From positions 1 through 64,000 of the IMG/VR virus record IMGVR_UViG_3300025679_000007: a DNA stretch of 64,000 bases; one strand, written 5' to 3'. Within the stretch, counting starts at the first letter, position 1, and each line of letters opens with the position of its first letter. The DNA is from a virus. The translations under genes and the position numbers were made by a program. The notes under the pieces were generated by a model. It did not search any database, was not told the DNA's origin, and worked only from the letters and a program-made list of their open reading frames with translations. Below are positions 43,301-63,073 of this stretch, in pieces.

Positions 43301-45175
43301 CGGCGTGGCGCGCGCCAAAACCTCCTGGTCCTGTATCTGCTTCGCCTTGGTCGCGCTGACCTTCTCTTGCGCCTGAATGTCGGCAATGGCCCGGATCGGT
43401 TGGGGCGCCGCGCCCCGCGTGACGGGTGGGGTGGATTCTGGCGGAACCTGCCCGTCCGGCCCGATCACCCGCGCAGCTCTCGCTCGGTACAGATCTTCCG
43501 CCGAACCCAACGCGCCATTAAACCGCCGCGCCAAAGTCTCGTAATACGCGGCTTCGACGTGTGCGCTTTGCTCCGCCACATCGCGCGGCGACCCAGCCGC
43601 CATGAGTTGCGCGGTGCGATCCGCCGTGATGAAGGCGCGCTGCGCCTCAATAGATTTTTGCGGGGCGGCTTCCGGCCCTGGCTCGGGAGGCGGAACCTCG
43701 GCGGCAACGGTCGGCGACTCTTCCGCTGGTGTCTGTTCCGGTTCTTCGACGTGATCCGCCGCCCGGCGCCGTGCCGCCGAAATGTCCGGTCCCAGGTCCC
43801 AAAGCGCGTGCTCGGTGTCCATGAGATGCTGACGGGCCAGAAGAATGTCCGGCGTATCAACGTGCGTGCCGGATTCCCATGCCGAGCGACGGGCGCCAAG
43901 GTCTTGCTCCTGAGTCGCGATATCGGCTAGCTCGGCCCGAAACCCGCGCGCGGCCGGGCCACGCGGATTGGCGTTGCGTAGCGCTTCTTCCGCCGCGTAC
44001 CGCTTCGCCGCCAGGTCATCGAACGCTTCGTCCGGCGGGTTGCTTTGGGTGTCGATCCAGGACCGGAGCGCATCCCGTTGTGTCAGCAATTCGTCGTTGC
44101 GCTGGAACACTTCCGGGCTCAACCGCCGCGCGATCGCGTCGACATCCGGGGTGGACAGGGGACCGAGCGCCGTCTGTTCGTCCGCCGCGGCATTGTTCGC
44201 CGCGATTTTCGTCGTGAGGCTTTGCTCTTCATCCCCACGGAACGTGGACTCGGTAATGCCCGGCCCAAGCACGCCAAGATCGCCAGCCTGCGCCACCGTC
44301 GGTTCGGTTGGACTGAGCACGCCTTCCGGCGGGACGGCGGTCGGATGAAACGCTCCGGCGCCAAGATTGGTCAGGTATTCGCCAAACCGGGTCGGCTTGT
44401 TGAACACCATCCCAAACCCGGTCGAAATCCCGATCTTGGCCCAGTCCGGTGTCTGGCCGCTCCATTCCTCCTGGCCGAGTTCCATGCCGCCCATCGCCGC
44501 CCCACCGAACAGCCGCCCGGTGAGCGGGTTCGCCATGAGGCGCTGGAACGCCGTGGCATCGGCCGGTAGGTTCAGTGCCTTGGTGGCGAGCGAACCTGGC
44601 ATCATCGTGACGGCGTACGGAGCCATTCCCCCGATGAAGGATGACAGAGGATGCTGGCTCTCTTGCAGCCGCTGGATGCGATCGGACTGGCCAAGCGCGT
44701 CCTGCCAGTTGTCCGGCATTTGGTGCAACACGAAATCCTGCGCGCCTTCGACGGCGGATGAGCCGGCAAAGAAGCCGCCTAGACCACCGACAAGTCCGCC
44801 AACCGCCGCGCCAACCGGCGCGACTACAGGGGCCGCCGGGCCGGCAAGAGCGCCAAGCCCCGCGCCGAACAACGCACCGGCCTCCGCACCCGCGCCGGCC
44901 GCCGCAAGCCCTCCGGCGGCGGGCAACGCACCGTGAATCGCGTGCGAAATAAAGGCGCCAATGCCGGAGGTCTGGACCGGCGCCACGGGCTGTAAATTCA
45001 GGTCGGCGAATGGGTCCGGTCCGACAGGCTGATCCGGACTCGCTGATGGATCAATATCAGCGAAAGGGTCCGGACCAACTGGTTGAGTCAGGTGGCCCGG
45101 CGCCTCAATGGGAACCATTTTCCCGGCACCGGCGTCAAACCGAAATCCAGGATGGGTATCGGTGGTATCTCCCAT
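37364..45175 (-). CDS. giant polyvalent internal virion protein
   Basis: A 2603-residue protein coupled by TGATG to the transglycosylase gene. N-terminus: repeated VGPDPFAD segments (about 32-58), then a Gly/Ala-rich hydrophobic stretch (75-165) that could insert in membranes. Near 900-1010 a ParB-like domain reads TVLVFRDAEGRNWIADGHQR. Around residue 1480 FMHETSHDWLKQL is an HExxH zincin motif. The last ~300 residues (AAMWRLAGNQAHSVRIGDLW; PSDLIKAVTDSGRYG; LTDEQYDDYARIAG) fit the large-polyvalent-protein C-terminal type LPD38. Long Pro/Glu/Ala-rich linkers separate domains. Such proteins are packaged and injected with DNA to protect it or act on the host. Confidence 0.85.
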   Translation of the reverse strand: MGDTTDTHPGFRFDAGAGKMVPIEAPGHLTQPVGPDPFADIDPSASPDQPVGPDPFADLNLQPVAPVQTSGIGAFISHAIHGALPAAGGLAAAGAGAEAGALFGAGLGALAGPAAPVVAPVGAAVGGLVGGLGGFFAGSSAVEGAQDFVLHQMPDNWQDALGQSDRIQRLQESQHPLSSFIGGMAPYAVTMMPGSLATKALNLPADATAFQRLMANPLTGRLFGGAAMGGMELGQEEWSGQTPDWAKIGISTGFGMVFNKPTRFGEYLTNLGAGAFHPTAVPPEGVLSPTEPTVAQAGDLGVLGPGITESTFRGDEEQSLTTKIAANNAAADEQTALGPLSTPDVDAIARRLSPEVFQRNDELLTQRDALRSWIDTQSNPPDEAFDDLAAKRYAAEEALRNANPRGPAARGFRAELADIATQEQDLGARRSAWESGTHVDTPDILLARQHLMDTEHALWDLGPDISAARRRAADHVEEPEQTPAEESPTVAAEVPPPEPGPEAAPQKSIEAQRAFITADRTAQLMAAGSPRDVAEQSAHVEAAYYETLARRFNGALGSAEDLYRARAARVIGPDGQVPPESTPPVTRGAAPQPIRAIADIQAQEKVSATKAKQIQDQEVLARATPTDGGTAVLERPAQTEAIDPSVRPRIRTGADIALEDGIRDPKAIIAVQNQELLALSDWQTRQRAGAASVEPARNPELDRLAATIGLPKTEAPPAAVIAAVVDRLPSERVVDEINAEAEAGQIEYREAERAAAEAAPEVTEDPDRFYDSDQSRPLEELEREHRPPSEIAATEQRLGGGREPEPAAPGAGPVPEGGEPPGPVVGTGGRGEPEGAGTGGTAVAGEPVVAPAAAVEPTGERPAVAAEPAAGGEQGPPAGAEFDRVAPLLPTPEQPNIQTHASGNGGLESLDPAEIGVDAARFQFKGGGDEAGVTDRLEGVETWDPRFAGTVLVFRDAEGRNWIADGHQRLGLAKRLVAAGQSGIRLNAFVLDARDGMTDAQARVIAAAKNITEGTGTAIDAAKVVKEAEVADLEVPPLPPRSTLARDGRALARLSADAFGMAVNDVVPTGQAAIVGRIVTDPARQVEAMRVLAKAKPGSLQEAEFIVRDVMETATEASTQGTLFGEEHYAASATLERAKVASEAMRQLGRDRTTFHTLVSEADRIQGHGENVLDTEANRNRLTTDEQARQLLTQLATRKGPVSDALTGIARRVRDGEIGAAGGAREFLGIIRKRLSEGLGERPNDRGSVLGAAREPELAPPDAHDTQARDLLGQLITEPLASRAAEPTIRTDERQITIPGTEPSAVQAQAARDQAGRGALRGEGEQRPADAGLFAPKDEPGGELFQHVTPTWEELLQRGRQVRALAQRYADAGKPAAFQGRGGLKFLVSHDLNYPPDGWRVTIFNKEGDPTGHWETKNAYEAFREVLTKQSEPIGANHPATPDTLYQRARAAIQGRIRMAPGDVRSIITLSRTADASTFMHETSHDWLKQLMSDSRHELAPPDLRADATTVRRWLQRSEDWTGFKRDGKPDVLPQERFARGFEQYLREGHAPSRALDSVFAKFKGWLTTIYRTLRGLGAPINDDIRGVFNRMLAIEPRRITHGEVPEPQGSIADIHEADAAEARPHEAEAVRNRVVSERDRYVAGQPPEVTHGLAPQAEPADQPGTAISDAGTETGRGPTAGRTLDSGSGQSEPLPRSGGGSTDRGAVEPGGGKAESESHGVGGGAAAEPPVADRRPGTGANPGIEQFAPTPAESFADTGSTEAVDLAGNVRVRNIDDSAGFIQAAMDSAERNGKYEAVRGKATMGAMIDLAQAMDLDPATITEAQLGRLFGGVEDLGPKIWALRDIIGQQGRLVHELWAKAAETQAPTDIAASTVEMARFDMMMTTLSGVTAKQGRNLGMSFRNMKDWQHAKDLNQFMKDNAGKDLYQLAMVAKLGARMDTPGKVAKLLRDSQRRSYGGMVLEYWINGLISGPSTHATYVIGNGILAIEKAGPETAAAAAIGALRARMGRQGSRVRFGEVGAQLRAAATEAPAAVQAGVEALRSGATTMLPGEEARPLMPFQGDTSLTMARGMTNAPVTWREAAGDAYGLVQGMRDGLVATGELVKAGGVPRAPMIGPVYSPLGQIPDFAYKGVKVVPLGTLARLPSRAVAAIHSTFRAMNYSMEVNALAYRQAMEEGLSGMARTARIADLRQNPSEEMMEQARGKATDLTLMGQGGRLTQNLSAFFNKTYNLPVLGETALLKFVDPFVHIAGNIMNQSLWQRTPIGLFGREIRADLSGRNGNIAQDTAMAKMLVGTSLAVTFGGLASQGLVSGSGPADPNKAAMWRLAGNQAHSVRIGDLWYDVHRLGPMGMLMSVAADMYDVVHQIGTEDADVVGKSLMHAFSQNILDESFMRGPSDLIKAVTDSGRYGAGYVRNFLSSFLPYSVGMAQMARATDPWSRQARTIMDAIRSKVPGMSESLFPRRDIWGDPMPNGAALLGPGVTAIYERQVSSDPVNQALLALGLGPAPVERRIRNVPLTDEQYDDYARIAGRTAKMQLDKIVRSPNYQAWPNTTRHEAIQETIRQARTAAEGMVMMKYPGIPRDAAAMQRARKTGETISVH

Positions 45176-47721
45176 CAGGGCGGCGCCGCGAAAGAGGGGC
45201 TCGTTAGTTCCGCCGGCGAAGGGGCGCCATGCCGCGTTAACCGCTCCACGAGTTCCGCGCCATCGTACCCGGCCGCGCCGAAGTAATGATTAAACCACGG
45301 GATCGCTCCCTGGGGATCGGCGGCCAGTTTCTGCAATACCTGTCCCCATGCGGCGTGCGTGTACGGCTTGCCGGTCTGTGGCGCGATCGGCGGTGCCGTC
45401 ATGATGCTGGACCACTCGCCCGCGTTCAGTCCTTTCGGCGCGGGCGGGATTGGCGCGTTGGGCGGGTCGATCTCTCCGGGAGCCGATTGCCCGGTCGCCA
45501 AAAGCCGGTCGCGCGCCATGTCGGTCGGACTGCGCATGCCACCCATCATTTTGTCGATGCTGTCCTGGCTCAGGAATTTGTCGATGTCGGCCGGATTGCC
45601 GCTGGCCTTCGCGGCGGTCAGGCGACGCTCGAACTCGGGAACGAACTGCGCATTGTAGATGTCTTCCCCTTTGGGGTCGCGAACCTTGAAAAATCCATCG
45701 TCCTGCTCAAAGGAAAGGTGCCGCTTCGCGTAGGTCAGCATGGACAGCGCCGTCGTGTTGACCGCCGCGGCGTCAGGGTCCTTGCGTGAGGACAGGAAAA
45801 TGTTGCGGAGCACATCGACACCACGAAGGGTCAGGTCGCCGCCGGGGCCGCCACGCTTCAGGATATCGTTGAGGTCAGTGATCCGGGTTGGATCGGCCGG
45901 GGGGGCGAAAATAGCAGAATAAGCCTTGGTGTAGCCGGGCCCGTAACCGGAGAGGTCCTCGCGGCCGACCTTGGTGAATTGCTCCTGGGCGAACTTGGTC
46001 AGGTTTTCTTTCTGGTCGGCGGTCAAAGATGGATTTTTCGTGATGGTGGTCGGATCAAACTTCGTCGGATCGTTCAACAACGTGGTGACCAGATTATTCG
46101 CCGCGCCTTCCTGCGCATCCTTCAGCGCCTTGGCCTGCTCGGCCTCTTGTTTCGCCTGGAGCATGTTGGTCTGCTGGATATGCTGCCAGACTCCTTCCTC
46201 GACCTGCCGCGCATGAACCGGATCGGTCGGGAACAAGCGCTGCCCCTCGGCGCGGGCCTGATCCATCATTTGCTGTTCATAGCCGAACGCGGCGGGATTA
46301 TGCCCTGGCGCCACGGGAGCGCCTGGTGTCACGCCGATGGCGGCGGCGTTCTGGGCGTATTTGGCTTGCCACACCCCAAGGAACTGACCGACCGTCATGT
46401 CCCCTGACCCACCGTTCCGGGTCACCGCCGCGACCGGGTTGGTCGATCCGGCCTCCGCCAGCACATTCACCGCCAGTTCGTTCGGATCGGCCTTCAGCAG
46501 CGCCGGACCGCCGCCAACGCCCTGCTGATGGACCATGTAGGTTTGCCACCCATCAGCGGGATGCCCAACAGCGCCTGACGCGACCCCGTAGGCATTGGCC
46601 AGGAACTGCACACCCTTGGCGGCCTGCTCGACGGGCGGTGCGCCAGCGGCGAGATTGACGGACGCCTTCTCAGCGGTTCCGAGTTGAAACACCCCGCCAT
46701 ATTGGCTTCCAGAGCGATCGGGAACGGTGCCGATCCCGCTTTCGATATGAGCGATGGTCAACGCCTGATCCGCCGGAACGCCCTCTGCCGCGGCGGATTT
46801 CTGAATTTGCCCGACCACGGCCGGATCCGGAGCCGGTGGGGGCGCCCCTGGGTTTCGTGTGACGTTGTTGATCCCGGCCGCCACCCCGGCTTCCGCCGCC
46901 GCGCCCTTGGTGATCCGCGTCAATTCTTCCCGCACCCCCGGATCGATCAGGCCGCCGAACTTCCCCAGGATTTGCGCGGCACGCGCACCGCCGCCGGACG
47001 GGTCAGTCGCCATGGCGCCCTCGACAGCGGATCGGATGACTTTGGTGCGCGCCGCGATCTGCCCTTGATCGATGAGGGTTTGATCGGGTGTCGCGCCATA
47101 CTTCAGACCGGTCAGTTGATCGCCTCGACTCTGCGCGTCGGCGAGCGAGTGCATGATGGTATCATCGGAAGTGTAACTGTGAGCTGCCTGCGTCGCGGCG
47201 GCCTGAATCCCCGCCTCCGCCACGCCTCCGGCATACACATCACTCTGTTGGTCCAAGTGGCGGCTGATTTCCGAGGATTTATACTGGAAATACCGCCGCG
47301 ACTGTTCATCGAATTGCAGTTTTTGCACGTCATTCTGCAAGCCGCCCTTGATCTGGTCGCGCAGTTGCGTGAGTTGACTGACGACCTCCGGGCCGGCTGA
47401 CAGTGCATCCGATCCCTTGAGCGAATACAGTCCTTTTGGCGCGGTCGGGTCGTTCGGGTTGCCGTAGGTCAACGCCTCGCCACGGTCCATGAACTGATTC
47501 ATGGCGTCGTCACCGGCGACCTGGTTGAACCGCTGCTGCCTGACCTCGGCGATCTGAGCGAGGTTGTTTCCGGCCTGCTGACCCTCGGCGCCGACGCGTT
47601 CTTCGGCCTGACCGATCAGGCCACCGAAGTCGGCCGGACTGCTCTGGATGCTCTCGTAGTCCGATGGCGGCGTCGCCGGGATCGGAACATCGGAGACAAT
47701 GGAAAGGGGAACGCGGGCCAC
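45175..47721 (-). CDS. internal virion protein with lytic transglycosylase domain
   Basis: An 848-residue protein (GTG start). Residues about 40-280 are helical; about 300-400 form an SLT-type lysozyme fold: EGVPADQALTIAHIESGIGT (catalytic E327), YGGVFQLGT, AVGHPADGWQTYMVHQQGVG. The rest is helical with Pro-rich linkers. It corresponds to T7 gp16-type internal proteins, which locally open peptidoglycan during DNA ejection. It lies between the gp14-like gene and the giant protein, the usual order of internal core genes. Confidence 0.85.
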   Translation of the reverse strand: MARVPLSIVSDVPIPATPPSDYESIQSSPADFGGLIGQAEERVGAEGQQAGNNLAQIAEVRQQRFNQVAGDDAMNQFMDRGEALTYGNPNDPTAPKGLYSLKGSDALSAGPEVVSQLTQLRDQIKGGLQNDVQKLQFDEQSRRYFQYKSSEISRHLDQQSDVYAGGVAEAGIQAAATQAAHSYTSDDTIMHSLADAQSRGDQLTGLKYGATPDQTLIDQGQIAARTKVIRSAVEGAMATDPSGGGARAAQILGKFGGLIDPGVREELTRITKGAAAEAGVAAGINNVTRNPGAPPPAPDPAVVGQIQKSAAAEGVPADQALTIAHIESGIGTVPDRSGSQYGGVFQLGTAEKASVNLAAGAPPVEQAAKGVQFLANAYGVASGAVGHPADGWQTYMVHQQGVGGGPALLKADPNELAVNVLAEAGSTNPVAAVTRNGGSGDMTVGQFLGVWQAKYAQNAAAIGVTPGAPVAPGHNPAAFGYEQQMMDQARAEGQRLFPTDPVHARQVEEGVWQHIQQTNMLQAKQEAEQAKALKDAQEGAANNLVTTLLNDPTKFDPTTITKNPSLTADQKENLTKFAQEQFTKVGREDLSGYGPGYTKAYSAIFAPPADPTRITDLNDILKRGGPGGDLTLRGVDVLRNIFLSSRKDPDAAAVNTTALSMLTYAKRHLSFEQDDGFFKVRDPKGEDIYNAQFVPEFERRLTAAKASGNPADIDKFLSQDSIDKMMGGMRSPTDMARDRLLATGQSAPGEIDPPNAPIPPAPKGLNAGEWSSIMTAPPIAPQTGKPYTHAAWGQVLQKLAADPQGAIPWFNHYFGAAGYDGAELVERLTRHGAPSPAELTSPSFAAPP

Positions 47722-48343: not shown

Positions 48344-49429
48344 TCAGGCCGCCATTTCTCTGTTAATCGCCCCGGAGCGGACCAGACGACTTAATTCTGT
48401 CCGGCAGGCTTTTTTGAATCTCTCCACTTTATCCTGATTTTCGAAATAATACCGAAGAACCGCGATGGCGTCAGTCTGAAGGTTTTGTCCACGCAGGCGT
48501 AGCCACCAATCCCGAGGCAAATCAATCGAGAGACAGTGGGTGAAGATCTCGGCGCAGACATCTTCACGGTCAAGATCGTCGTGATCGACAACCAACGCAC
48601 CCGGAAGGCGTGCGATCTGATCCAGCGCGCGACTGATCCGCTCCATGTTTTTGCGCAATTTCGTCAGGTCATAAACAAAAGCGCCATTTAGATCGAGCCG
48701 CGCCAGCGAGGCCATGACTTGTTCCACCGGACGACGCACCACGACGGCGCGCAAATCGGGGACGTGATGATGAAGAACGCGCCAGCCTGGCGCCGCGGCG
48801 GTTTCCGCCGTTCCCGTTCCCGGTTGGCTGAATAGCGCCGCTATATCCTCGATTCCGCGCATCCTGATCGCGGTCTCGTGGTGACACTCCCAGTCGCCGT
48901 ACGAGAGGAACCGAGACAACCAGAACGTCCGCGATCGGGGCAACCCATACACGATAAAGGGACGCTTAGGCGGAGGATGGCGCCAGATCGTCATCAACCG
49001 ATATGCCACACCGTCAACGCCCACCGGCTCCGGCGGACCGAATGTAAATCCCAACGCGGCAAAAAAACGGATCGAGCGCGTGTAAGAGGCCAGGACGTAG
49101 CACCGCAACCGGCCATGGATCACCAGCATCTCGTTTATCTCGCGCCGCGTTTCCCGTAGAAACGCGATCTTCGCCCGCTCGATGGAAGGTGCCGTAAAGA
49201 GCCACGGTGCGCCATCGCTACCAAGGACAGGCGTTTGCACACCCCAGACCGCCGCGACCTCGCCACCGACCAGCGCGACTCGCCTGACAGGTGAATCGCG
49301 ATAAAGATCATGCAGCAGATGTCTGGCTTTCAGGCCCCAACCCTCGATTTCTGCACGGTCCATCGGCCGTATAGCACGCGCCATGACACGGATATCGGCG
49401 AGCGTGGCCGGGCGGATTTCGTAGTTCAC
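48344..49429 (-). CDS. GNAT (gp13-like) - sulfotransferase fusion protein
   Basis: GTG 49429 overlaps the upstream stop (GTGA); TTG 49444 is an alternative. Residues 1-150 resemble the phage GNAT/gp13-type protein (YEIRPATLADIRVMARAIRP; FLRETRREINEML; SIRFFAALGFTFGPPEPVGV). Residues about 155-361 form a sulfotransferase-like domain: FIVYGLPRSRTFWLSRFL (158-175), the 5'-phosphosulfate loop of PAPS enzymes, and VVVRRPVEQVMASLARL (229-245), the 3'-phosphate site with R232 and S241. The gene lies between the nozzle and gp14-like genes, the gp13 position. Substrate unknown. Confidence 0.8.
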   Translation of the reverse strand: MNYEIRPATLADIRVMARAIRPMDRAEIEGWGLKARHLLHDLYRDSPVRRVALVGGEVAAVWGVQTPVLGSDGAPWLFTAPSIERAKIAFLRETRREINEMLVIHGRLRCYVLASYTRSIRFFAALGFTFGPPEPVGVDGVAYRLMTIWRHPPPKRPFIVYGLPRSRTFWLSRFLSYGDWECHHETAIRMRGIEDIAALFSQPGTGTAETAAAPGWRVLHHHVPDLRAVVVRRPVEQVMASLARLDLNGAFVYDLTKLRKNMERISRALDQIARLPGALVVDHDDLDREDVCAEIFTHCLSIDLPRDWWLRLRGQNLQTDAIAVLRYYFENQDKVERFKKACRTELSRLVRSGAINREMAA

Positions 49430-52400
49430 CCGGAAATCATCCAATTACCGGGTCCCCGTGGAACCTGCTGCCGTTGTTGCCTCTGAGAAAACGTCAACTC
49501 GGGAAGGTCTCCCTCCAAGTACTCTGGCACCACATCAACGATATTGAGAGGAAGGGGGGCTGTCTGTTGAAAGGCGACCTGCCCTGGCTTCGCCCACGTC
49601 GACATGATGGTGGTGCGAATATCTCCCGTGAAAAGTTCCTGCACGGTGACGCCGCCCGGGGATACATAAGTACTACCCTGGTTTGGGGTCGTTACCATGC
49701 CGCTCCAGGCTGGCGCCAGGGATGGCGGCGACAGCGCCGCGCCGTCGGGCTGATTTGATCCCACCGCGACACTGATACTGGCGTCGACCCGCGCCGTGAG
49801 CGCTGTTACGGTTTTCCTGCGGCCCTGAAGCGTCATTTGTCCGGCTGGATCAAGTCTCGGCAACTGAAGCTGCGGTGTGAACGGCAATCCGACCTTGACG
49901 TTCGAGGCAAAATACGGAAGCGGAATCGTCCCCGTGCCACTGACGACCGTTGGGGGAATCGGCACGCCGTCCGCGATACCCGTGACCGTCAGTCCGGCGA
50001 GGTGAGTCAAACCGCCAACCGCGTCGATTGGGGCTGTCATGGTCCAACTGCCCGGAGGTTGCTGAATGACCCTTGGGGTCACGTCAGGAAACAACGCGAC
50101 CGGAGGCAGGTTCCAGGTTCCATTCACGGAACTCGTGCTGATGTAGCCGCTGATGGTGGCTATCCCACCGCCCATCCGAATGACGCTCCCGATATTCCCG
50201 GAGGAAAACACCGGGCTCGACGCATTAAAGATCACCACGCCACTGGCTGAATTGGCGTACAGGATGGCATTCGGGGCTGGCATCGGATTGGACAGGCCGC
50301 AATCGACACACCAAGGATCTTCCGTCGCCGCCCAGATGCGGTTATCCATCCTCTCGATGTAATAAGCGGTTCCACCAGCGGCCGCCACGCACGGTCGCGC
50401 GACCGCCACGTAAAGGGCGTCGACAGGCGGTTCCGTTACCGATGCGATAGACAGAAATTGTCCGAACGTGTCATGTCGCGCCCAGCCATAAACCTCTTGT
50501 TCCTTGAGGTAAGTTAATGACAACAAAACGCCGTCGTTCCGAATGAACCACGCAATCTTGTATGGCTCTTCGCACCACGCCGACTGCAAAATCTGAAATC
50601 CGGCGAACAACTGGCCGGAAAGTTGCGTCAGATCGGACCCGGTATAGATGTTGATCCAGAAATTCCAGGCCAGATCACGAACGATTGAACCTTTAGCCTG
50701 CACGTAGATGATATCGAAGTTCACCGTGAGCGGCGGTACGATATCGGAACACCCATTGAACGCCTGCTGAGTGGCCTGGATGCTGGTCGGCGTGATGGGT
50801 TGAGGATTGGTCGCGGAACTGCCGGAGCCACCAATCTGCCATGCCCCAAGACCGGTCAGGACCACAAGCCCTCCCGGCATCGGAATCATGAACTGGATAC
50901 CATTGACCTGTTGCGACCATGGCGTCGCGGTGATCGCGTCGTTTGCCGTGATCGGAATTGAAGTGTCGAAATTCAGAAAGTTGCCGGCCTGCGACATCCA
51001 TAACGTATCGGGATCGTTGAGGCTCCCCGCGTAAACCCGGCGTTGTTGCGTGTAAGCCGGCACGCTTGGCCACGTTCCCGTTGGCGGTCCCAGGGTCAAG
51101 GTTCCGGTCGCGCCAGTGCCGCCGCCGCTGTCCGTGAAAACCAGCGTATCGGTCCCACTGAAGTTCTGCCCGGCGCTCATGATTAAAACCGCCTGAATCA
51201 CCCCGGAGATAATGACCGGACCAGCGATAAAGCCGCTCCCCGTGCCGGACGTGATCGTGACCGTCGTGGCGCTCGTGTAACCGGCGCCTCCGGATGTTAT
51301 CGAACAGTACAGCACCGCGCCGCGAGCAAATGGGTCAGTATGCTGTGGCGGGACCGTCGTCACATCCGGGATGGTGTTGCTGTCGACGAACTGGGTTCCG
51401 TAGGACGTTCCGCAGTAGCCGAAAACCGCCCCGGCCGGCACGGGGAGGGCGTCAGTCGGATTCCCCGGATCGGTGTTATAGGAGGTCGGCGCCTTGTAGA
51501 TATTGTAGGTCGCGGCGTTCGCCACGGCGCTCCAGCTAACGATGTTGGACCCCGCCGTTGCCGCGATATCAACGCCATTTGTTAAATTGGCGATCGGCGA
51601 CGCCACGCTTTCTTCACCGGTCACCACTTCGACGGCGGTGACACAGTACGCATAGGCGGCGGGCAGCGTCGGTGGCGATGTCGCCGTGCTGGGCTGAACC
51701 GTCGCCGAAGCACCGGCGTTCGCCGGCGCCACGATGTTGGCCGCGAATGTGCTTTGCGTGAGCACCCAGTCCGATGCCGTGACCCTGGCGAGGTCGTAAG
51801 GGGGGTATTCGGCGCCATTTACCGTGTTGACGCAGCATAGCGTCATGACATCCGCCGATTGCGTGGTCTTCAAATAGGGCAGGTCACCCGCCGCCCATGG
51901 TGTCGCCAGAGTGTATATCCGGGCGACCGTTCCGCCGGAGGTATAAACCCCGTAGCTTGTCGCGTTGACCGAGTTGCCATTGAGGTCTTCCAGCGTGAAG
52001 TATCCGCTCGAAGCACTGGCCACGATGTAGGTTCCGCCATTAAGTTGCGTCGTTCCGCCGACCCCTTCGATAACGACCCAATCTCCATTGGCGAAGTTGT
52101 TCACCGCCGCGATTCCGCATGGATTGGTGTTCGAGGTGCCGGTGATCGTTTTCGCCGCTTCAACGACGGGCGCCCCATGGGCGTAAACCCGCATGTAGTT
52201 GTCGCCCAATTCCAACGCGTAACCCTGATTGATGTTGAACTGAAACTTAATGAGGCGTGGCGGAGCCTGGGCGTAGGTCTGTCTGCTGCGGTTGCAAAGC
52301 GCGGTCCCGGCCCGGCTGCAATACCCACCTCGGTATGAAACAAACCCGTTCCGCATTGTCGTGGCGGCCACGTGGATCTTCGCCAGGTCGACGTGACCGT

Positions 52401-52458
52401 ACAGCGCGGGCGCGATTTCACCGGCCGCGAAGGCGGTCTGTATGGAGAACTGCGGCAT
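49426..52458 (-). CDS. tail nozzle / tubular-B-like protein
   Basis: A 1010-residue protein. It begins FSIQTAFAAGEIAPALYGHV and then MRNGFVSYRGGYCSRAGTAL, the start pattern of podovirus tail proteins that form the lower tail tube or nozzle (F..GE..P.L.GR.D, N....GG...R.GT). Residues about 100-180 hold an FCCH-like beta insertion (NFANGDWVVIEGVGGTTQLN). Near 390-460 there is a GGAGYTSATTVTITSGTGSG module. The gene follows the five adaptor paralogues, as T7 gene 12 follows gene 11. Confidence 0.8.
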   Translation of the reverse strand: MPQFSIQTAFAAGEIAPALYGHVDLAKIHVAATTMRNGFVSYRGGYCSRAGTALCNRSRQTYAQAPPRLIKFQFNINQGYALELGDNYMRVYAHGAPVVEAAKTITGTSNTNPCGIAAVNNFANGDWVVIEGVGGTTQLNGGTYIVASASSGYFTLEDLNGNSVNATSYGVYTSGGTVARIYTLATPWAAGDLPYLKTTQSADVMTLCCVNTVNGAEYPPYDLARVTASDWVLTQSTFAANIVAPANAGASATVQPSTATSPPTLPAAYAYCVTAVEVVTGEESVASPIANLTNGVDIAATAGSNIVSWSAVANAATYNIYKAPTSYNTDPGNPTDALPVPAGAVFGYCGTSYGTQFVDSNTIPDVTTVPPQHTDPFARGAVLYCSITSGGAGYTSATTVTITSGTGSGFIAGPVIISGVIQAVLIMSAGQNFSGTDTLVFTDSGGGTGATGTLTLGPPTGTWPSVPAYTQQRRVYAGSLNDPDTLWMSQAGNFLNFDTSIPITANDAITATPWSQQVNGIQFMIPMPGGLVVLTGLGAWQIGGSGSSATNPQPITPTSIQATQQAFNGCSDIVPPLTVNFDIIYVQAKGSIVRDLAWNFWINIYTGSDLTQLSGQLFAGFQILQSAWCEEPYKIAWFIRNDGVLLSLTYLKEQEVYGWARHDTFGQFLSIASVTEPPVDALYVAVARPCVAAAGGTAYYIERMDNRIWAATEDPWCVDCGLSNPMPAPNAILYANSASGVVIFNASSPVFSSGNIGSVIRMGGGIATISGYISTSSVNGTWNLPPVALFPDVTPRVIQQPPGSWTMTAPIDAVGGLTHLAGLTVTGIADGVPIPPTVVSGTGTIPLPYFASNVKVGLPFTPQLQLPRLDPAGQMTLQGRRKTVTALTARVDASISVAVGSNQPDGAALSPPSLAPAWSGMVTTPNQGSTYVSPGGVTVQELFTGDIRTTIMSTWAKPGQVAFQQTAPLPLNIVDVVPEYLEGDLPELTFSQRQQRQQVPRGPGNWMISG

Positions 52459-52498: not shown

Positions 52499-53416
52499 CT
52501 AATAGGCGATCCCGTCTCCGAACATACATGCGTCGTGCCCGTAACCGAGCACGCCGGCCCCGTTCCAATCCAGGCCGCCGGCGCGGCTACGGACCCGCAG
52601 CCAATCCGGCACATGGTCTACCGATGTCCATCCCTCGTTTCCGTCACTGACCCGCGCCTGATCCAGCGCGGCCTTGCAGATCGCGATCTGTTCATTCCGG
52701 ATCGAGGTCGCCGCCTTCCGGTCTGTCACGAGCGGCATCGCGAAGCACGACGCGAGAAGCGAGACAAACGCCTGACCAAACAGCGGGTCCCATTGATCCA
52801 CGTAGGTTATCAGCGACGTGTAAACGAGGTCGGCGCGGGATTGGTTCGTCAGGATAACAGTCTGACTGGCGAGCCCCTGTCCCATCGTGGTCGCTGTATC
52901 GGGGATTTGATCCCATGTGGTCGGTGCGCCGATCAGGGCCGGGATCGTGTCCGTGCCAACCAGAAAGCGGGCCGGAACCTGCCGCCCGAACGGCTGTTGG
53001 TTAAGGCCGCTCATCAACGGGTTAGACGGCAATGAGATGTTCCCGGTCGGCACATTGGAACCGGCATTGTTAAACGAGGTCGGCACGAACCGCGCCTTCA
53101 CGCAGTCGATCGGCCACGCGTATTCGTACGTCCACGGGATCATGCCCGGCGTGCCGCTACCGACGAACGGTGGATTGATCCCCTCGGCGATCTGCTGTTG
53201 CGAGGTTTGCCCCGTGGCGTCCTGAAGCAGAACCATCGAGACGCGACGCCGCGCGAAATTCCAATGCGCCGACCGGAACAGTTGGCGCAGCGCCGGGCCA
53301 TAATGACGCCGCGCGACCATCGCCTCCTTGGCACCATCGTTAAGATCGACGATCGAATTCGGATTGCCGATCAGGTCAAGCGCCCTGTTGCAGATATCCT
53401 CTGGGCGCGTTGGCAT
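52499..53416 (-). CDS. tail adaptor (gp11/tubular-A-like) paralogue 5
   Basis: A 305-residue member of the adaptor family: EDICNRALDLIGNPNSIVDL, ALRQLFRSAHWNFARRRVSM, PWTYEYAWPIDCVKARFV and YTSLITYVDQWDPLFGQAFV are the conserved blocks (helical start, aromatic RSAHWNFA, YEYAWP.DC, WDPLF). It has a ~60-residue insertion (SNVPTGNISLPSNPLMSGLN) and a long C-terminal extension. T7 gp11 forms the dodecamer between portal and nozzle. Confidence 0.8.
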   Translation of the reverse strand: MPTRPEDICNRALDLIGNPNSIVDLNDGAKEAMVARRHYGPALRQLFRSAHWNFARRRVSMVLLQDATGQTSQQQIAEGINPPFVGSGTPGMIPWTYEYAWPIDCVKARFVPTSFNNAGSNVPTGNISLPSNPLMSGLNQQPFGRQVPARFLVGTDTIPALIGAPTTWDQIPDTATTMGQGLASQTVILTNQSRADLVYTSLITYVDQWDPLFGQAFVSLLASCFAMPLVTDRKAATSIRNEQIAICKAALDQARVSDGNEGWTSVDHVPDWLRVRSRAGGLDWNGAGVLGYGHDACMFGDGIAY

Positions 53417-53420
53417 GGCG

Positions 53421-54026
53421 TTACCCTCTGTTGTCGGCGACGCTCACGACGCTGCCGGCCGCTTCGGCCATGCGCGCCTTGACCGCCTCCGGGTCGGATC
53501 GCAGCGCCTCCTGGAACCGCAACGCGAGGCGTTCGATCAAGGCTTCGATGAACCGTGGCTCCGGCGACCATTGAGCGGGATCGTCGATCAGAGCAGTAAA
53601 CGATGCGACGGCCCCGGCCAAATTACTCAGGACGACTTTCTGTCCCAGGGCTGAATCGTTGGCGATGGTGAAGATGTTCGGCACCGGGTCCCACTCCGGA
53701 AGCGCCACCGGCGTCGGCCGGACCGATCGAATTCTCAGGCATCCAGAAGGGTAGGCATACTCGTAAATCCACGGCAGCAAGGGGTAGATCGAGGTCCACG
53801 GCGTCAACCCGTATCCCCCTACCGGCGCCGTCTTCAATAGCTTGAGGCCGATCTCCTGTCTGGCGAACTGCCAGTCCTCCGACTCCATGAGTTCGTCGCG
53901 GGCCTGAACATAAATTTCAATCGCGGCCCGCGACGCGACGGACCCTTCGTAAATGGAACCGATCGGGGTTGGATAACCAATCCGGCGGAGCGCCTTGTTG
54001 CAAATGTCCTCAACCGCGATCGCCAT
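53421..54026 (-). CDS. tail adaptor paralogue 4
   Basis: A 201-residue adaptor: VEDICNKALRRIGYPTPIGS, ESEDWQFARQEIGLKLL, PWIYEYAYPSGCLRIRSVRP, PEPRFIEALIERLALRFQ. Most similar to paralogue 2 (54598-55206), with which it shares GSIYEGS, LKTAPxGGYG and RSVRPTPVALPE. The DNA is identical over 53941-53975 and 53694-53731, so the copies arose recently or exchange sequence. Coupled to the upstream gene by TGATG. Confidence 0.8.
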   Translation of the reverse strand: MAIAVEDICNKALRRIGYPTPIGSIYEGSVASRAAIEIYVQARDELMESEDWQFARQEIGLKLLKTAPVGGYGLTPWTSIYPLLPWIYEYAYPSGCLRIRSVRPTPVALPEWDPVPNIFTIANDSALGQKVVLSNLAGAVASFTALIDDPAQWSPEPRFIEALIERLALRFQEALRSDPEAVKARMAEAAGSVVSVADNRG

Positions 54027-54598
54027 CAGGAATCCTTGCCCACATCGATGCCGGCGATTTTAAGAGCCGTGGCGTATCCGTCAGGGCCGCCCTTGCTCTG
54101 GCCGTGCTCGTCCTTGGAGGACAACAGCGGCGCCAAGGACGCACTGAGGTATTGCACGACCGTTTCAGTGAATAATGGGTTCCAGAAATCCTCGGTTACG
54201 CCGCTTGTCGTGTAGACCAGGCTGGCGGAAGCGGTATTCGTCCAGATCACTGTCGCCATGACGCCACCGATGACATTCGCGCCAACGTCCCATCGTGTCG
54301 GAATTGGGCTGTTCAGCGCGCCGTTGTTCGGGACCACCATGCGCACCTTCAGGCAATCGGCGGGATAGACGTACTCAAAATCCCATCCAAACTGGGCGCC
54401 GTTGCCGGACAACGCGAGAGTCGCCGCCTTGCGTGAGAATTCGTGGTCCGAAGCCCGAAGCAGCGCCCAAACCGTTTGCGTGTATTGCCGCAACGCGATC
54501 TGGGATTCCCGGCTGCCGTCTTGTGGGTCGCCGATCGTGATTTCACAGCCGGCCAGGTTAAGCGCCCGATTGATGATGTCAGCGGGATAAACGGTCAT
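54026..54598 (-). CDS. tail adaptor paralogue 3
   Basis: A 190-residue adaptor: ADIINRALNLAGCEITIGDP, LLRASDHEFSRKAATLA, WDFEYVYPADCLKVRMVVPN and YTTSGVTEDFWNPLFTETVV. More divergent than paralogues 2 and 4 but with all family blocks. Coupled by TGATG on both sides. Confidence 0.8.
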   Translation of the reverse strand: MTVYPADIINRALNLAGCEITIGDPQDGSRESQIALRQYTQTVWALLRASDHEFSRKAATLALSGNGAQFGWDFEYVYPADCLKVRMVVPNNGALNSPIPTRWDVGANVIGGVMATVIWTNTASASLVYTTSGVTEDFWNPLFTETVVQYLSASLAPLLSSKDEHGQSKGGPDGYATALKIAGIDVGKDS

Positions 54599-55206
54599 CA
54601 GCCGCGCCTCATGTCGGCGATCATCGTGGCGCCTTCAGCATCCCGATCAGCGGTCTGAACCGGATTCTGCTCCTGGGCGAATTGCCGCTCAAATTCCACG
54701 GCCAACGCCTCTATCAAGGCATCGAGAAAGCCAGCGTCATTCCATGCCGCGGGGTTCGTGACGCGGCCGGTAATGGTGGCCTGGGCGTTCAGCAGGTTGG
54801 TCAACACCACCAAAGACCCTGACGCCGTATCGCTCCCGACCACGAAGATGTTCGGAAACACGTTGCGCTCCGGAAGCGCCACCGGCGTCGGCCGGACCGA
54901 TCGAACCATGATGCAGGACATTGGATAGGCATACTCATACCCCCAGGGGAGCGGTGGATTGTTCACGGCGCTCCATGGCGTCGAGCCATACCCTCCGGCC
55001 GGCGCCGTCTTCAGCGCAGCGCCCAGGCTTACCGTCTGCCTGGCGAAACCCCAGTCCCGCTCGCGCAACACCGCGTCTCTGATCTGGCCGTAATAGTCGA
55101 GCGCGATCCGGGAGGCCCGCGACCCTTCGTAAATGGAACCGATCGGGGTTGGATACTTCACGCGGCGAAGCGCGGCGTTCAGAATGTCTTCGACCGCCAG
55201 CACCAT
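54598..55206 (-). CDS. tail adaptor paralogue 2
   Basis: A 202-residue adaptor starting at ATG 55206 with AAGGGG upstream: VEDILNAALRRVKYPTPIGS, RERDWGFARQTVSLG, PWGYEYAYPMSCIMVRSVRP, FLDALIEALAVEFERQF. It is the closest relative of paralogue 4. Its stop overlaps the next start (TGATG). Confidence 0.8.
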   Translation of the reverse strand: MVLAVEDILNAALRRVKYPTPIGSIYEGSRASRIALDYYGQIRDAVLRERDWGFARQTVSLGAALKTAPAGGYGSTPWSAVNNPPLPWGYEYAYPMSCIMVRSVRPTPVALPERNVFPNIFVVGSDTASGSLVVLTNLLNAQATITGRVTNPAAWNDAGFLDALIEALAVEFERQFAQEQNPVQTADRDAEGATMIADMRRG

Positions 55207-55220
55207 GACGACGCGACCCC

Positions 55221-55838
55221 TTAGTTGTGCAGTGTGTCGCTGGTGATCACGAGGGTGCCGCCGATGGCGTTCACGGTGCCGGCGTTCCACTCGACCGAAA
55301 GCTCACCGCTTCCCGGCGCGACCGTCACCCCAGAGGAAAATGTCGCGACCGGACCACCCTGCCAGTCGGCCATGAGCGTGCCGCTGTTGACCTGAATGCC
55401 AGCACCGTGCGCGATGACGGCGCCCGCGTTCCACTGCGCCTGCAACGTGTCACTGTTGATCGCCAGGCCGGTGTTCACCGCCACCACAAGGCCACCCTGC
55501 CAGTATGCCTCCAGCGTGCCGCCGGCCAGAAGCGTCAGGCCGGCCCCGATGCTGGAAATGATCGCGCCGGATGCCTGAAGCGATCCGCCCGCATTGAACG
55601 AAAGACCACCCGCCAAGGGAATGGTCGTGGCGACAGCGGCGACGGTTCCTGGATTGCCAAGCAATGTCGCCGCGAGTTGTGACTTCGCGGTAAGCGTGCC
55701 GCCAAGCTTAACGGGACCCTCGACAAAAAACGGGTTCGGACCAACAACGATCAAAGCGCCGAGTTGTGGCGCCCCGCGCGGGATGCGGAGCGCTTCATTT
55801 CCCGGTTGTGGATAGACCGGTAATTTGCCGGTCGGCAT
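55221..55838 (-). CDS. beta-repeat structural protein within the adaptor cluster
   Basis: A 205-residue protein built from repeats of about 15-25 residues (LAGGTLEAYWQGGLVVAVNT; INSDTLQAQWNAGAVIAHG; VNSGTLMADWQGGPVATFSS; GELSVEWNAGTVNAIGGT). The recurring [L/M].A.W..G.V and G..L....TL pattern predicts stacked beta strands. It lies between adaptor paralogues 1 and 2, so it may decorate the neck or tail. No family recognised. Confidence 0.65.
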   Translation of the reverse strand: MPTGKLPVYPQPGNEALRIPRGAPQLGALIVVGPNPFFVEGPVKLGGTLTAKSQLAATLLGNPGTVAAVATTIPLAGGLSFNAGGSLQASGAIISSIGAGLTLLAGGTLEAYWQGGLVVAVNTGLAINSDTLQAQWNAGAVIAHGAGIQVNSGTLMADWQGGPVATFSSGVTVAPGSGELSVEWNAGTVNAIGGTLVITSDTLHN

Positions 55839-56668
55839 CAGCTATCGCGATCCGGAGCATCCGCGCTGATTTTCCCGGACGTATCCAGCATTTCCCTTCC
55901 GAGATCGGGCCGCCCCGCAACGGGAATGGTTACCATCGAACCAATGAACCGAACCGCCATCTCCGTGAAAATGCTGTCCCAGTCATACTCCGTGATGAGG
56001 GATGTGGAATAGATCAGCGAAGCGCCCACCACATCCGCCCAGATCACTTGCTGGGTGGTGAACACGACTTCGGTTATGTCGATAAAAAATCCGGTGCCGA
56101 TCCCTGGTTGCGTCCCACCCGTCGCCGTGGCGGTGATCGCCGGCCCATATCCAGACCCATTCGATGTCAGCGTGTAGGTGCCCACCGCCCCGGCACTCAA
56201 CACGGTGTCGATGACGTAAGTCGCGACCGCGCCAGTGCCACCAAGAATCGTGCCGGTGTCGCCCACCCCGTAGCCGGTGCCGTTGTAGCCGACAAATGAA
56301 CCCGCTATGATCCCGGTCACGGTTACGTCACCGACATCCCACCGCACCGGCTGCGGATCGTTCTGATCCCACGTCGCCGGGGCGATCTGGCGAACCCGTA
56401 TGCAGTCGTCCGGGTAAGCGTATTCGTAGGCCCATTGGAGCGGCGGTGTGTTCCCGGTCTGGATCATGGGAATGCTTCTGCGGCAAAACTCGAAATCCTG
56501 ATTGCGCAAAAGCATCTGGACCGCGCCAACATACAAAGTGGCGCAGTAGATTCCTGCGGCGGACCCATCGAAGTTGGTTGCCACGGTTCCGCTGGCGAGG
56601 GGTGGCCCCTGCGCGATTTGCGTGAGCGCCCGATTAACAACTTCGAGAGCGGTCAGGCCGAATGGCAT
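55838..56668 (-). CDS. tail adaptor paralogue 1, with inserted beta module
   Basis: A 276-residue adaptor: ALEVVNRALTQIAQGPPLAS, LLRNQDFEFCRRSIPMI, QWAYEYAYPDDCIRVRQIAP and YSTSLITEYDWDSIFTEMAV. Between the two halves, about residues 120-200, lies a Gly-rich module (YNGTGYGVGDTGTILGGTGA ... TLTSNGSGYGPAITATATGG) of the GxGY type seen in fibres and in the nozzle protein. It is the first of the five paralogues to be transcribed. Confidence 0.8.
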   Translation of the reverse strand: MPFGLTALEVVNRALTQIAQGPPLASGTVATNFDGSAAGIYCATLYVGAVQMLLRNQDFEFCRRSIPMIQTGNTPPLQWAYEYAYPDDCIRVRQIAPATWDQNDPQPVRWDVGDVTVTGIIAGSFVGYNGTGYGVGDTGTILGGTGAVATYVIDTVLSAGAVGTYTLTSNGSGYGPAITATATGGTQPGIGTGFFIDITEVVFTTQQVIWADVVGASLIYSTSLITEYDWDSIFTEMAVRFIGSMVTIPVAGRPDLGREMLDTSGKISADAPDRDS

Positions 56669-58852: not shown

Positions 58853-59332
58853 TCAGGCGGCCGGGATCAACGGCTCATGGCCTGGGGGGCCTTCTGGACC
58901 CACCGGACCAGCCGGGCCAACCTCTCCGGCGGGACCAACTGGGCCTGCCGGACCTTGCGGGCCTGGATCACCCTGGGGTCCAGTCTCGCCGGGAGGGCCG
59001 GGAGGGCCAACGACGGTGACGGGCGGCTTGTCGTTCTCGCCGCGGAGAAACGTCAGAATGTCCTGAGCATTTCCGATGATGTTGTCGCCACCCGCCTGAA
59101 CGGCGAACTCGACCGCCTGGGCCCGCAACTGATCGATATCGGTCAATACAGCCTCCTGTGTCTGGGTGGGGTAAACGCGCGCGGCGTTTTGATCGGCCAC
59201 ATCATGGCTGACCGCTTCGTGCATGCCAGGAACAACCTGATTGGGGTGGAGATACAGGATCGTGCCGGCGATGTGGAACACAGTATCGCGCAACAGTCGG
59301 AAGGGGCGCGGGGTGGAGCGAAAATCTGGCAT
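58853..59332 (-). CDS. late protein with collagen-like repeat
   Basis: A 159-residue protein with TAGGAG upstream. Residues about 10-36 ([20 protein letters not shown]) resemble the start of the adjacent 70-residue protein. The C-terminal ~45 residues are 14 Gly-X-Y triplets ([18 protein letters not shown] and onward), so it should trimerise as a collagen-like stalk. Such repeats occur in phage fibres and decoration proteins. Confidence 0.75.
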
Positions 59333-60897: not shown

Positions 60898-61374
60898 TCA
60901 GATCAGGTCCCACGTCCCGGTCGGCTGATTGAAAATGTAGCAATAGGTCGTGTTCGCGGTCATGGCGGTGGCGACGTTGGTGATGGTCTGGCCACTCCCG
61001 GCCGCCACCTGGATCGTCACGGCGGTCTGGGTCTGCGTCGAACGCATGCAGTTCCGTTGGCCATTGCCTGGATTGGGCGCGAGCGTGAACGTTCCCGTGG
61101 CGAGCGTGCCGACCGGCGCGATCAAATACCAACTCTGCCCATTGGCAAACGCCAGCGAAAACGCCGTGAGCGGCACGGCCTTCACATAACCCTGCGGCCC
61201 GCTGATCTGGGCGGCGGTGGCGAACGTGCTGGCGGCGGAAGGCGCCCCGCCAACAAAATCCTGGAACAGATCGGTCGCACCAACCGATGTGACCTGCGGC
61301 AACGTGGGTGCCTGCGCCCATGCGCCACCGATACCGGCGAGCGCCAGGACGGCGCCCAACAATAGTTTTTTCAT
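60898..61374 (-). CDS. exported small beta protein
   Basis: A 158-residue protein with GGAG upstream and signal peptide MKKLLLGAVLALAGIGGAWA, before QAPTL. The mature part is beta-rich (LIAPVGTLATGTFTLAPNPG; TAVTIQVAAGSGQTITNVAT) and may resemble fibre-tip domains. Its place close to the capsid genes is unusual for an exported protein. Confidence 0.7.
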   Translation of the reverse strand: MKKLLLGAVLALAGIGGAWAQAPTLPQVTSVGATDLFQDFVGGAPSAASTFATAAQISGPQGYVKAVPLTAFSLAFANGQSWYLIAPVGTLATGTFTLAPNPGNGQRNCMRSTQTQTAVTIQVAAGSGQTITNVATAMTANTTYCYIFNQPTGTWDLI

Positions 61375-62347: not shown

Positions 62348-63073
62348 TCAGACCATTTGCTTCGCGGGCGGCATCAGCGTGCCGAGGATGCGCTGTTCAA
62401 CCGTTTTCGTTTCCGCGCCACGGCCTTTGATCGTCGGCGCGTCGCGGCCAACCTGCGGTGCCTGGTCGCGGCCACCCTCGGGGTTCATCCCGCCGCTGCG
62501 CACCACGAGGCCGCCGGCGGTGACGCGTAGATTGGCGGTCTTCCGGGTGTCGCCAATCGATTCGAGGTATAGTTCCATGATGGCGCGCGCCGGGGCGTTC
62601 ACCGGTTCCATGTACTGGTTCGGCTCGCCCCACCAGCCGATTTCGGTCGGATGCGCGACGCGGTTGCGGTCCACCCAAAAAGGCTGAATTTTGCGGTCGC
62701 CGAGGTAGACCATCTGACGCAGCGTATAATCAGGCTGAACCCCCGCCGCGATGGTCGCTTCAAGCAGGTCGACGAGCCGCGCCTTGGCCTTGTTCCGCTT
62801 CGCGATTTCCTCCGGGGCCACCACGGCGCGACCAGCGTTTTGATCGCCGACCTTGGATATCTCCATCGCCAGCGCCGCCATCCAGGACGTATCCCCGGAG
62901 GCGTTGGGCGCGGCGGATGCGACGCCAGCCAGCGACTCCCGGAACTCGGCGAGCTGCCGCGCGACCTCCCCGGCGACGGTATCTCGTGTCGCGGCGGCGA
63001 CACGCTCCGCGATGATGCGCTCCACCTCATCGGCGGGGATCATGTCGCGCGTTTTTTCAGTGGTGGGCGGCAT
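62348..63073 (-). CDS. hypothetical phage structural-region protein
   Basis: A 241-residue protein: helical N-terminal half (AAATRDTVAGEVARQLAEFR), then KARLVDLLEATIAAGVQPDY, a central RQMVYLGDRKIQPFWVDRNR and a polar C-terminus. The Leu-rich middle and WWGEPNQYMEPVN segments suggest a structural or morphogenesis role. It lies directly after the cement gene. Not recognised. Confidence 0.6.
   Translation of the reverse strand: MPPTTEKTRDMIPADEVERIIAERVAAATRDTVAGEVARQLAEFRESLAGVASAAPNASGDTSWMAALAMEISKVGDQNAGRAVVAPEEIAKRNKAKARLVDLLEATIAAGVQPDYTLRQMVYLGDRKIQPFWVDRNRVAHPTEIGWWGEPNQYMEPVNAPARAIMELYLESIGDTRKTANLRVTAGGLVVRSGGMNPEGGRDQAPQVGRDAPTIKGRGAETKTVEQRILGTLMPPAKQMV

Follow-up and report, generated by a model that had tools for sequence, protein, structure and literature searches.

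A cassette of five tail adaptor paralogues in an uncultured podovirus that probably encodes a multi-ring neck

The virus record IMGVR_UViG_3300025679_000007 of IMG/VR is 71,284 bases long, and its first 64,000 bases, hereafter the window, contain five minus-strand genes for paralogous tail adaptor proteins at positions 52499 to 56668. The gene order is A'-X-B'-A-B-C followed by the tail nozzle gene, where X is not an adaptor and the letters denote types defined by position in related cassettes (A for first, B and M for middle, and C for last genes). In T7, one gene, gp11, provides one dodecamer. Between portal and nozzle this virus probably builds a neck, or barrel, of several rings, one homododecamer for each adaptor type, a reading to which we assign a probability of roughly 0.7.

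All five genes were confirmed as members of one adaptor family, PHROG 394, whose relatives include the Carin1 connector, BPP-1 Bbp14 and epsilon15 gp11. Each reading frame begins with ATG and lacks internal stops, and each protein matched the PHROG 394 profile ('tail protein') independently: A' (55838-56668, 276 residues, A-type; expectation value E 8.9e-20), B' (54598-55206, 202 residues, B-type; E 1.1e-19), a divergent and probably A-type copy (54026-54598, 190 residues; E 4.1e-22), B (53421-54026, 201 residues; E 3.1e-22, with 250 bits against the B-type profile) and C (52499-53416, 305 residues; E 6e-30 over profile positions 6-189 of 190, with 389 bits against the C-type profile). An earlier note on this DNA had recognized all five as gp11/tubular protein A-like adaptors, an identification upheld by these matches and by those of the A, B and C type profiles to the Carin1 connector structure (8ck1_E). 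The motifs that it named recur in every copy; in the order 55838, 54598, 54026, 53421 and 52499, the aromatic block reads FEFCR, WGFAR, HEFSR, WQFAR and WNFAR, the YEYAYP..C block YEYAYPDDC, YEYAYPMSC, FEYVYPADC, YEYAYPSGC and YEYAWPIDC, and the late W...F block WDSIF, WNDAGF, WNPLF, WSPEPRF and WDPLF.

The copy-specific insertions described earlier are likewise present. A' contains a Gly-rich insert of ~90 residues (~residues 113-205) in the beta, or fibre-dock, region, which is absent from the 30 further A-type sequences in the alignment. C has extra loops in the dock region and a C-terminal extension of ~60 residues, and its long tail begins at about residue 256. A resemblance between the insert of A' and a segment of the nozzle protein (E 7e-8, from a tiny database and calculated without composition correction) was attributed to low complexity and not accepted as homology. 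The number of adaptor genes thus stands as first proposed, while the description of an unbroken tandem run does not, since gene X (55221-55838, minus strand) separates the first two. X encodes a Gly/Ala-rich protein of 205 residues with ~23-residue repeats (offset 22-23); it had no PHROG or Pfam match and no relative in a single-protein scan of viral contigs. For want of a PHROG match it was ruled out as a sixth adaptor, and it is possibly a fibre or decoration protein.

The folds agree with this family assignment. Compared with 8ck1_E, the type profiles gave E 8.5e-19 for A, 6e-21 for B, 7.1e-21 for C and 1.7e-25 for M. AlphaFold2 models were obtained for two of the five proteins, A' and C, the other three being matched to 8ck1_E through their type profiles. 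In Foldseek searches the A' model, with a mean predicted local distance difference test (pLDDT) score of 78 (47-65 in the insert), matched 8ck1_E at E 2.3e-9 with a template modelling score (TMt) of 0.74, and the C model (mean pLDDT 76) matched it at E 3.3e-12 with TMt 0.76. The LME-1 protein (9efk) was second best for both models (TMt 0.68 each), followed by weaker matches to KP32 TtpA (5mu4), P-SCSP1u and T7 gp11 (7box); chains 7box and 5mu4 had Foldseek probabilities of 0.97-1.00 and E of about 0.004-0.06. T7 gp11 and KP32 tubular protein A, which share the adaptor fold of the two models, were absent from the sequence-profile matches in the PDB search. Structure prediction had been proposed as a check on the family assignment; the outcome that would have spoken against it, no adaptor fold in three or more of the five proteins, did not occur among the two that were modelled, both of which are adaptor-like.

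Phylogenetic trees of 243 and 92 rows resolved the adaptors into one clade per gene position. The last genes (C) formed a group with support of 100/100, the first genes (A), without 54026, one with 99/95, and the middle genes (B together with M) one with 99/96. Single-copy adaptors formed a separate group (98/96) outside the A, B and C clades, and the deepest branching order was weak (74/62). The window therefore does not hold five different kinds of subunit, as the earlier note had supposed, but two A/B-type pairs and one C-type protein, with the A-type call weak for 54026. The latter scored 161, 141, 119 and 106 bits against the A, M, C and B profiles, respectively, and lies on a long branch. 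Its placement with A had support of 76/88, and a firm assignment was dropped because B and C placements were not rejected by the approximately unbiased test (p-AU 0.28-0.29); its sequence nonetheless makes it probably A-type. No relative of 54026 was found in the single-protein scan of viral contigs.

The survey of copy number that the earlier note had suggested was carried out, and most of the relatives it recovered have three tandem copies, some having four or five. Searches with tblastn against 50,697 phage records matched C in 46 records and B in 53, at one place in each, the best match of C among them being to BPP-1 (28% identity). In whole-record searches PHROG 394 was matched once in each of nine isolates and three to four times in relatives of 60-70 kb; in these counts one gene of record G005 is counted twice, its match being split by an insert, and the six matches of the window likewise come from five genes, since the insert of A' breaks its match in two. 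Complete cassettes in viral contigs were arranged, ahead of the nozzle gene, as A-B-C (54 loci), A-M-B-C (six), A-B-B-C (two), A-M-M-B-C (two) and, in the window, A-B-A-B-C; these contigs were chosen by similarity to the window proteins, with some near-identical ones retained, and the counts describe the range of arrangements rather than natural frequency. The picture was unchanged in a second scan, many of whose contigs had already been in the first. One contig, L140 (1-3029), starts inside an M-type gene and continues M-M-B-C, so that it holds three M-type genes including the truncated one; were an A gene to lie ahead of these, that phage would have six adaptors. The A-B-C form was also present in bacterial genome contigs, among others as a prophage of Rhizobium sp. 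BK313 (within a 2.56-Mb contig), in two Hyphomicrobiales/Rhizobiales metagenome bins and on a 3.7-kb contig binned as Patescibacteria. No cultured phage with a multi-gene cassette was found in the collection searched.

In five contigs (L038 ~1891, L040 ~9260, L079 ~9258, L121 ~8258 and L144 ~7419), B and C are separated by related reading frames of 175-245 residues that, judged by eye, look like endonuclease VII or HNH-type mobile endonucleases. In MW202473 (ctype202; L115 1701-3971) a single-copy adaptor domain ends a frame of ~757 residues, with an N-terminal extension of ~520 residues.

The five genes of the window look like a three-gene core joined by an A'-X-B' block of different ancestry. 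A' grouped with the A proteins of contigs L006 and L007 (support 100/99) and B' with the B proteins of the same two contigs (100/98), while C grouped with the C proteins of L008, L010, L012, L075 and L092 (96/90). B fell with L008, L010 and L075 at weak support, its best relatives being in L075, L008, L010 and L012. Best-match mapping likewise related A', B' and the protein at 60898 to L006, and the head-side proteins at 62348, 61932 and 61391, the nozzle and the ejection proteins to L012, L075 and L127. The cassette thus appears to be of mixed origin, because A' and B' belong to the L006 lineage and B, C, the nozzle and the ejection proteins to another. A recent event in which an A-B pair was simply duplicated in tandem is disfavoured, as A' and B' are closer to L006 and L007 than to the window's own copies (B' and B are 53% identical); an old duplication with later losses elsewhere is possible.

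The same mosaic pattern could arise if the assembly had joined two related phages whose real genomes have three adaptor genes each, and the exact B'/A junction occurs in no other contig searched. Furthermore, a separate IMG/VR contig (L086, 1-7184), protein-identical to the window into the endolysin-like gene at 45175-47721, begins inside B. However, at the B'/A boundary the stop and start codons overlap as TGATG and the GC content runs smoothly, four and five copies occur in independent contigs, and phiGT1 shows that recombination between lineages can add tubular protein A (tubeA) genes (PMC10386132). An assembly artefact is accordingly considered very improbable.

The types differ at their C-termini. 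The conserved F of the late W-x-x-x-F motif is followed by 60-88 residues in single-copy adaptors and 77-109 in C proteins, compared with medians of 42, 41 and 42 in A, B and M, and an ARxxDGNEGxxxxDxxPDWMRxR sequence is common to C and some single-copy adaptors. The adaptors of SU10 and P-SCSP1u touch the portal clip with their embracing element and the nozzle with their helix bundle, and their beta dock holds fibres (PMC9509320, PMC10575957). Because the long tail is shared by C and the single-copy adaptors, and the embracing element contacts the portal, C would be the portal ring and A and B spacers. Under the multi-ring reading, each type would form its own homododecameric ring; C, the product of the gene adjoining the nozzle gene, would be the counterpart of the ordinary single adaptor and grip the portal by its tail; the A and B types, which lack this tail, would form further rings stacked below it; and the nozzle hexamer would dock on the last ring. 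The outward beta regions of the A and B rings could carry fibres or decorations. The phage of the window would have up to five rings, three from the core (A, B and C) and two from the additional A'-B' pair, which comes from a different lineage. One ring per gene, this ring order, twelve-fold symmetry, the presence of all five proteins in the virion and a longer neck are what we infer from these comparisons.

The paralogues might instead alternate within one dodecamer of lowered symmetry. They are co-inherited, two, three or four kinds could divide 12, and for dual-tubeA phages such as phiGT1 Hardies et al. left open two rings or a single ring of heterodimers (PMC10386132). However, five kinds do not divide 12, which makes an equal five-way mixture impossible; gene number varies from three to five; and the single-copy-type tail is confined to C. 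The neck of phiCrAss001, to our knowledge the one solved case with multiple paralogues, is a stack. A single mixed ring is therefore regarded as unlikely, though one built from some of the paralogues is conceivable.

Selection bears on a further alternative, in which one or two of the five would assemble in each virion and the others would be spares or dock variants for different fibres. The unique insert of A' and the position of X beside it would suit such a role, as would the fibre-like reading frames found between A and B in relatives: long, low-complexity, fibre- or spike-like frames occur there in L010 (2207, 735 residues), L016 (7620, 501 residues, with collagen-like repeats) and L043 (8561). 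Redundancy does not predict, however, that relatives keep all types in fixed order and with low ratios of nonsynonymous to synonymous substitution (dN/dS). This ratio was ~0.01-0.13 for A, B, C and M in pairs of relatives with synonymous divergence (dS) below 0.7 (leaving aside two sequences so alike that they had too few changes to be used), no close relative covering the window's own extra copies. The low values in relatives indicate that each type is maintained by purifying selection, and alternative or redundant adaptors appear rather improbable, signs of a switching mechanism having been sought no further than in gene layout. The earlier note had offered a hetero-oligomeric neck or alternative adaptors; position-specific clades, purifying selection and restriction of the tail to C fit separate stacked rings better than a single mixed ring or interchangeable adaptors.

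Several observations weigh against the multi-ring reading. In a few proteins of the B and M types the motif is followed by 55-64 residues, a range that overlaps that of the shortest single-copy adaptors, and most of the C tail was modelled at very low confidence (pLDDT 34-41 over approximately residues 261-290). Its portal-gripping role would be carried over by analogy from T7-type adaptors, which the sequence profiles did not find. The predicted fold covers A' and C, and 54026 is reached through the profile of relatives. For members of this clade, neither a structure or proteomics of the virion nor a multimer model was found, so that oligomeric state and the order of the rings are inferred. 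Comparing distance matrices of the adaptors and the nozzle did not settle that order, being confounded by gene adjacency. Finally, the five-gene locus is represented by one contig.

The closest architectural parallel is phiCrAss001, in which four paralogous ring proteins, R1-R4 (gp43, gp40, gp35 and gp34), form five stacked dodecameric rings (PMC10172136). As proposed for the window, several paralogous ring proteins there separate the portal from a T7-like nozzle. Many crassviruses have three genes of this kind, and in phiCrAss001 the gene for the ring at the portal end, gp43, is the immediate neighbour of the muzzle gene gp44, much as C adjoins the nozzle gene. Its four ring genes are, however, spread over several places rather than nearly contiguous, its record (NC_049977) has no PHROG 394 match, and its barrel chains appeared in the A' fold search with weak scores, at E 0.17 (7qoj_E) and above. 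The two sets of genes are probably of independent origin. The dual-tubeA phages phiGT1 and Bcep22 resemble the window in having adjacent tubeA paralogues, the extra copy being attributed to recombination between podovirus lineages (PMC10386132), but they have two copies from very divergent tubeA lineages, and the phiGT1 record lacks a PHROG 394 match. Carin1 gp37 (8ck1), LME-1 orf17 (9efk), BPP-1 Bbp14 and epsilon15 gp11 share sequence family and predicted fold with the window's proteins. Carin1, BPP-1 and epsilon15 also have portal, capsid, adaptor, nozzle and ejection proteins in the same gene context, yet each encodes a single adaptor with a longer C-terminal tail than the A and B types.

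The surroundings of the cassette follow this plan. C directly precedes the PHROG 376 tubular protein B, or nozzle, gene (49426-52458, 1010 residues; E 5.7e-146, and tblastn E 2e-67 to the Carin1 'tail nozzle'), as the adaptor does in Carin1, BPP-1 and epsilon15, with the A and B types further upstream. On the same strand after the nozzle are genes for an internal virion protein, a gp14-like protein, a large protein with endolysin matches (45175-47721) and a 2603-residue protein with internal-virion-protein matches. Upstream of the adaptors, within the window and beyond its end, reading frames look like terminase, portal and capsid genes in the expected order, as named by sequence, length and position, and the overall gene order is that of BPP-1, epsilon15 and Carin1. 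The gene at 48344-49444 (minus strand) encodes an internal-virion-protein or acetyltransferase-like domain (PHROG 308, residues 8-154) followed by a region matching the phage hydrolase family PHROG 10855 (E 2.7e-6), with Sulfotransfer_3 below the cut-off. A short protein encoded at 58853-59332 (minus strand) has a collagen-like GPxGPx tail and resembles tail fibre proteins.

The architecture proposed here is of a known kind, while the family and the gene number are new. The evidence leans somewhat toward a clade of uncultured podoviruses outside the crassviruses, some of them in Hyphomicrobiales genomes, with an extensible neck: a conserved core of three rings, one gripping the portal and the others tail-less spacers, extended as ring genes are added or swapped, with the five distinct ring proteins of the window's phage exceeding the four of phiCrAss001. 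If so, the stacking of adaptor rings would not be peculiar to crassviruses and would have arisen more than once, and the neck length of short-tailed phages could evolve through added ring genes. Phages with one, three, four and five ring genes form a natural series in this clade, and a named bacterial genome carries the three-gene form. The question of one ring or two in dual-tubeA phages would thereby become testable, as would the purpose of a longer neck, be it reach through the capsule, cargo storage or fibre number.

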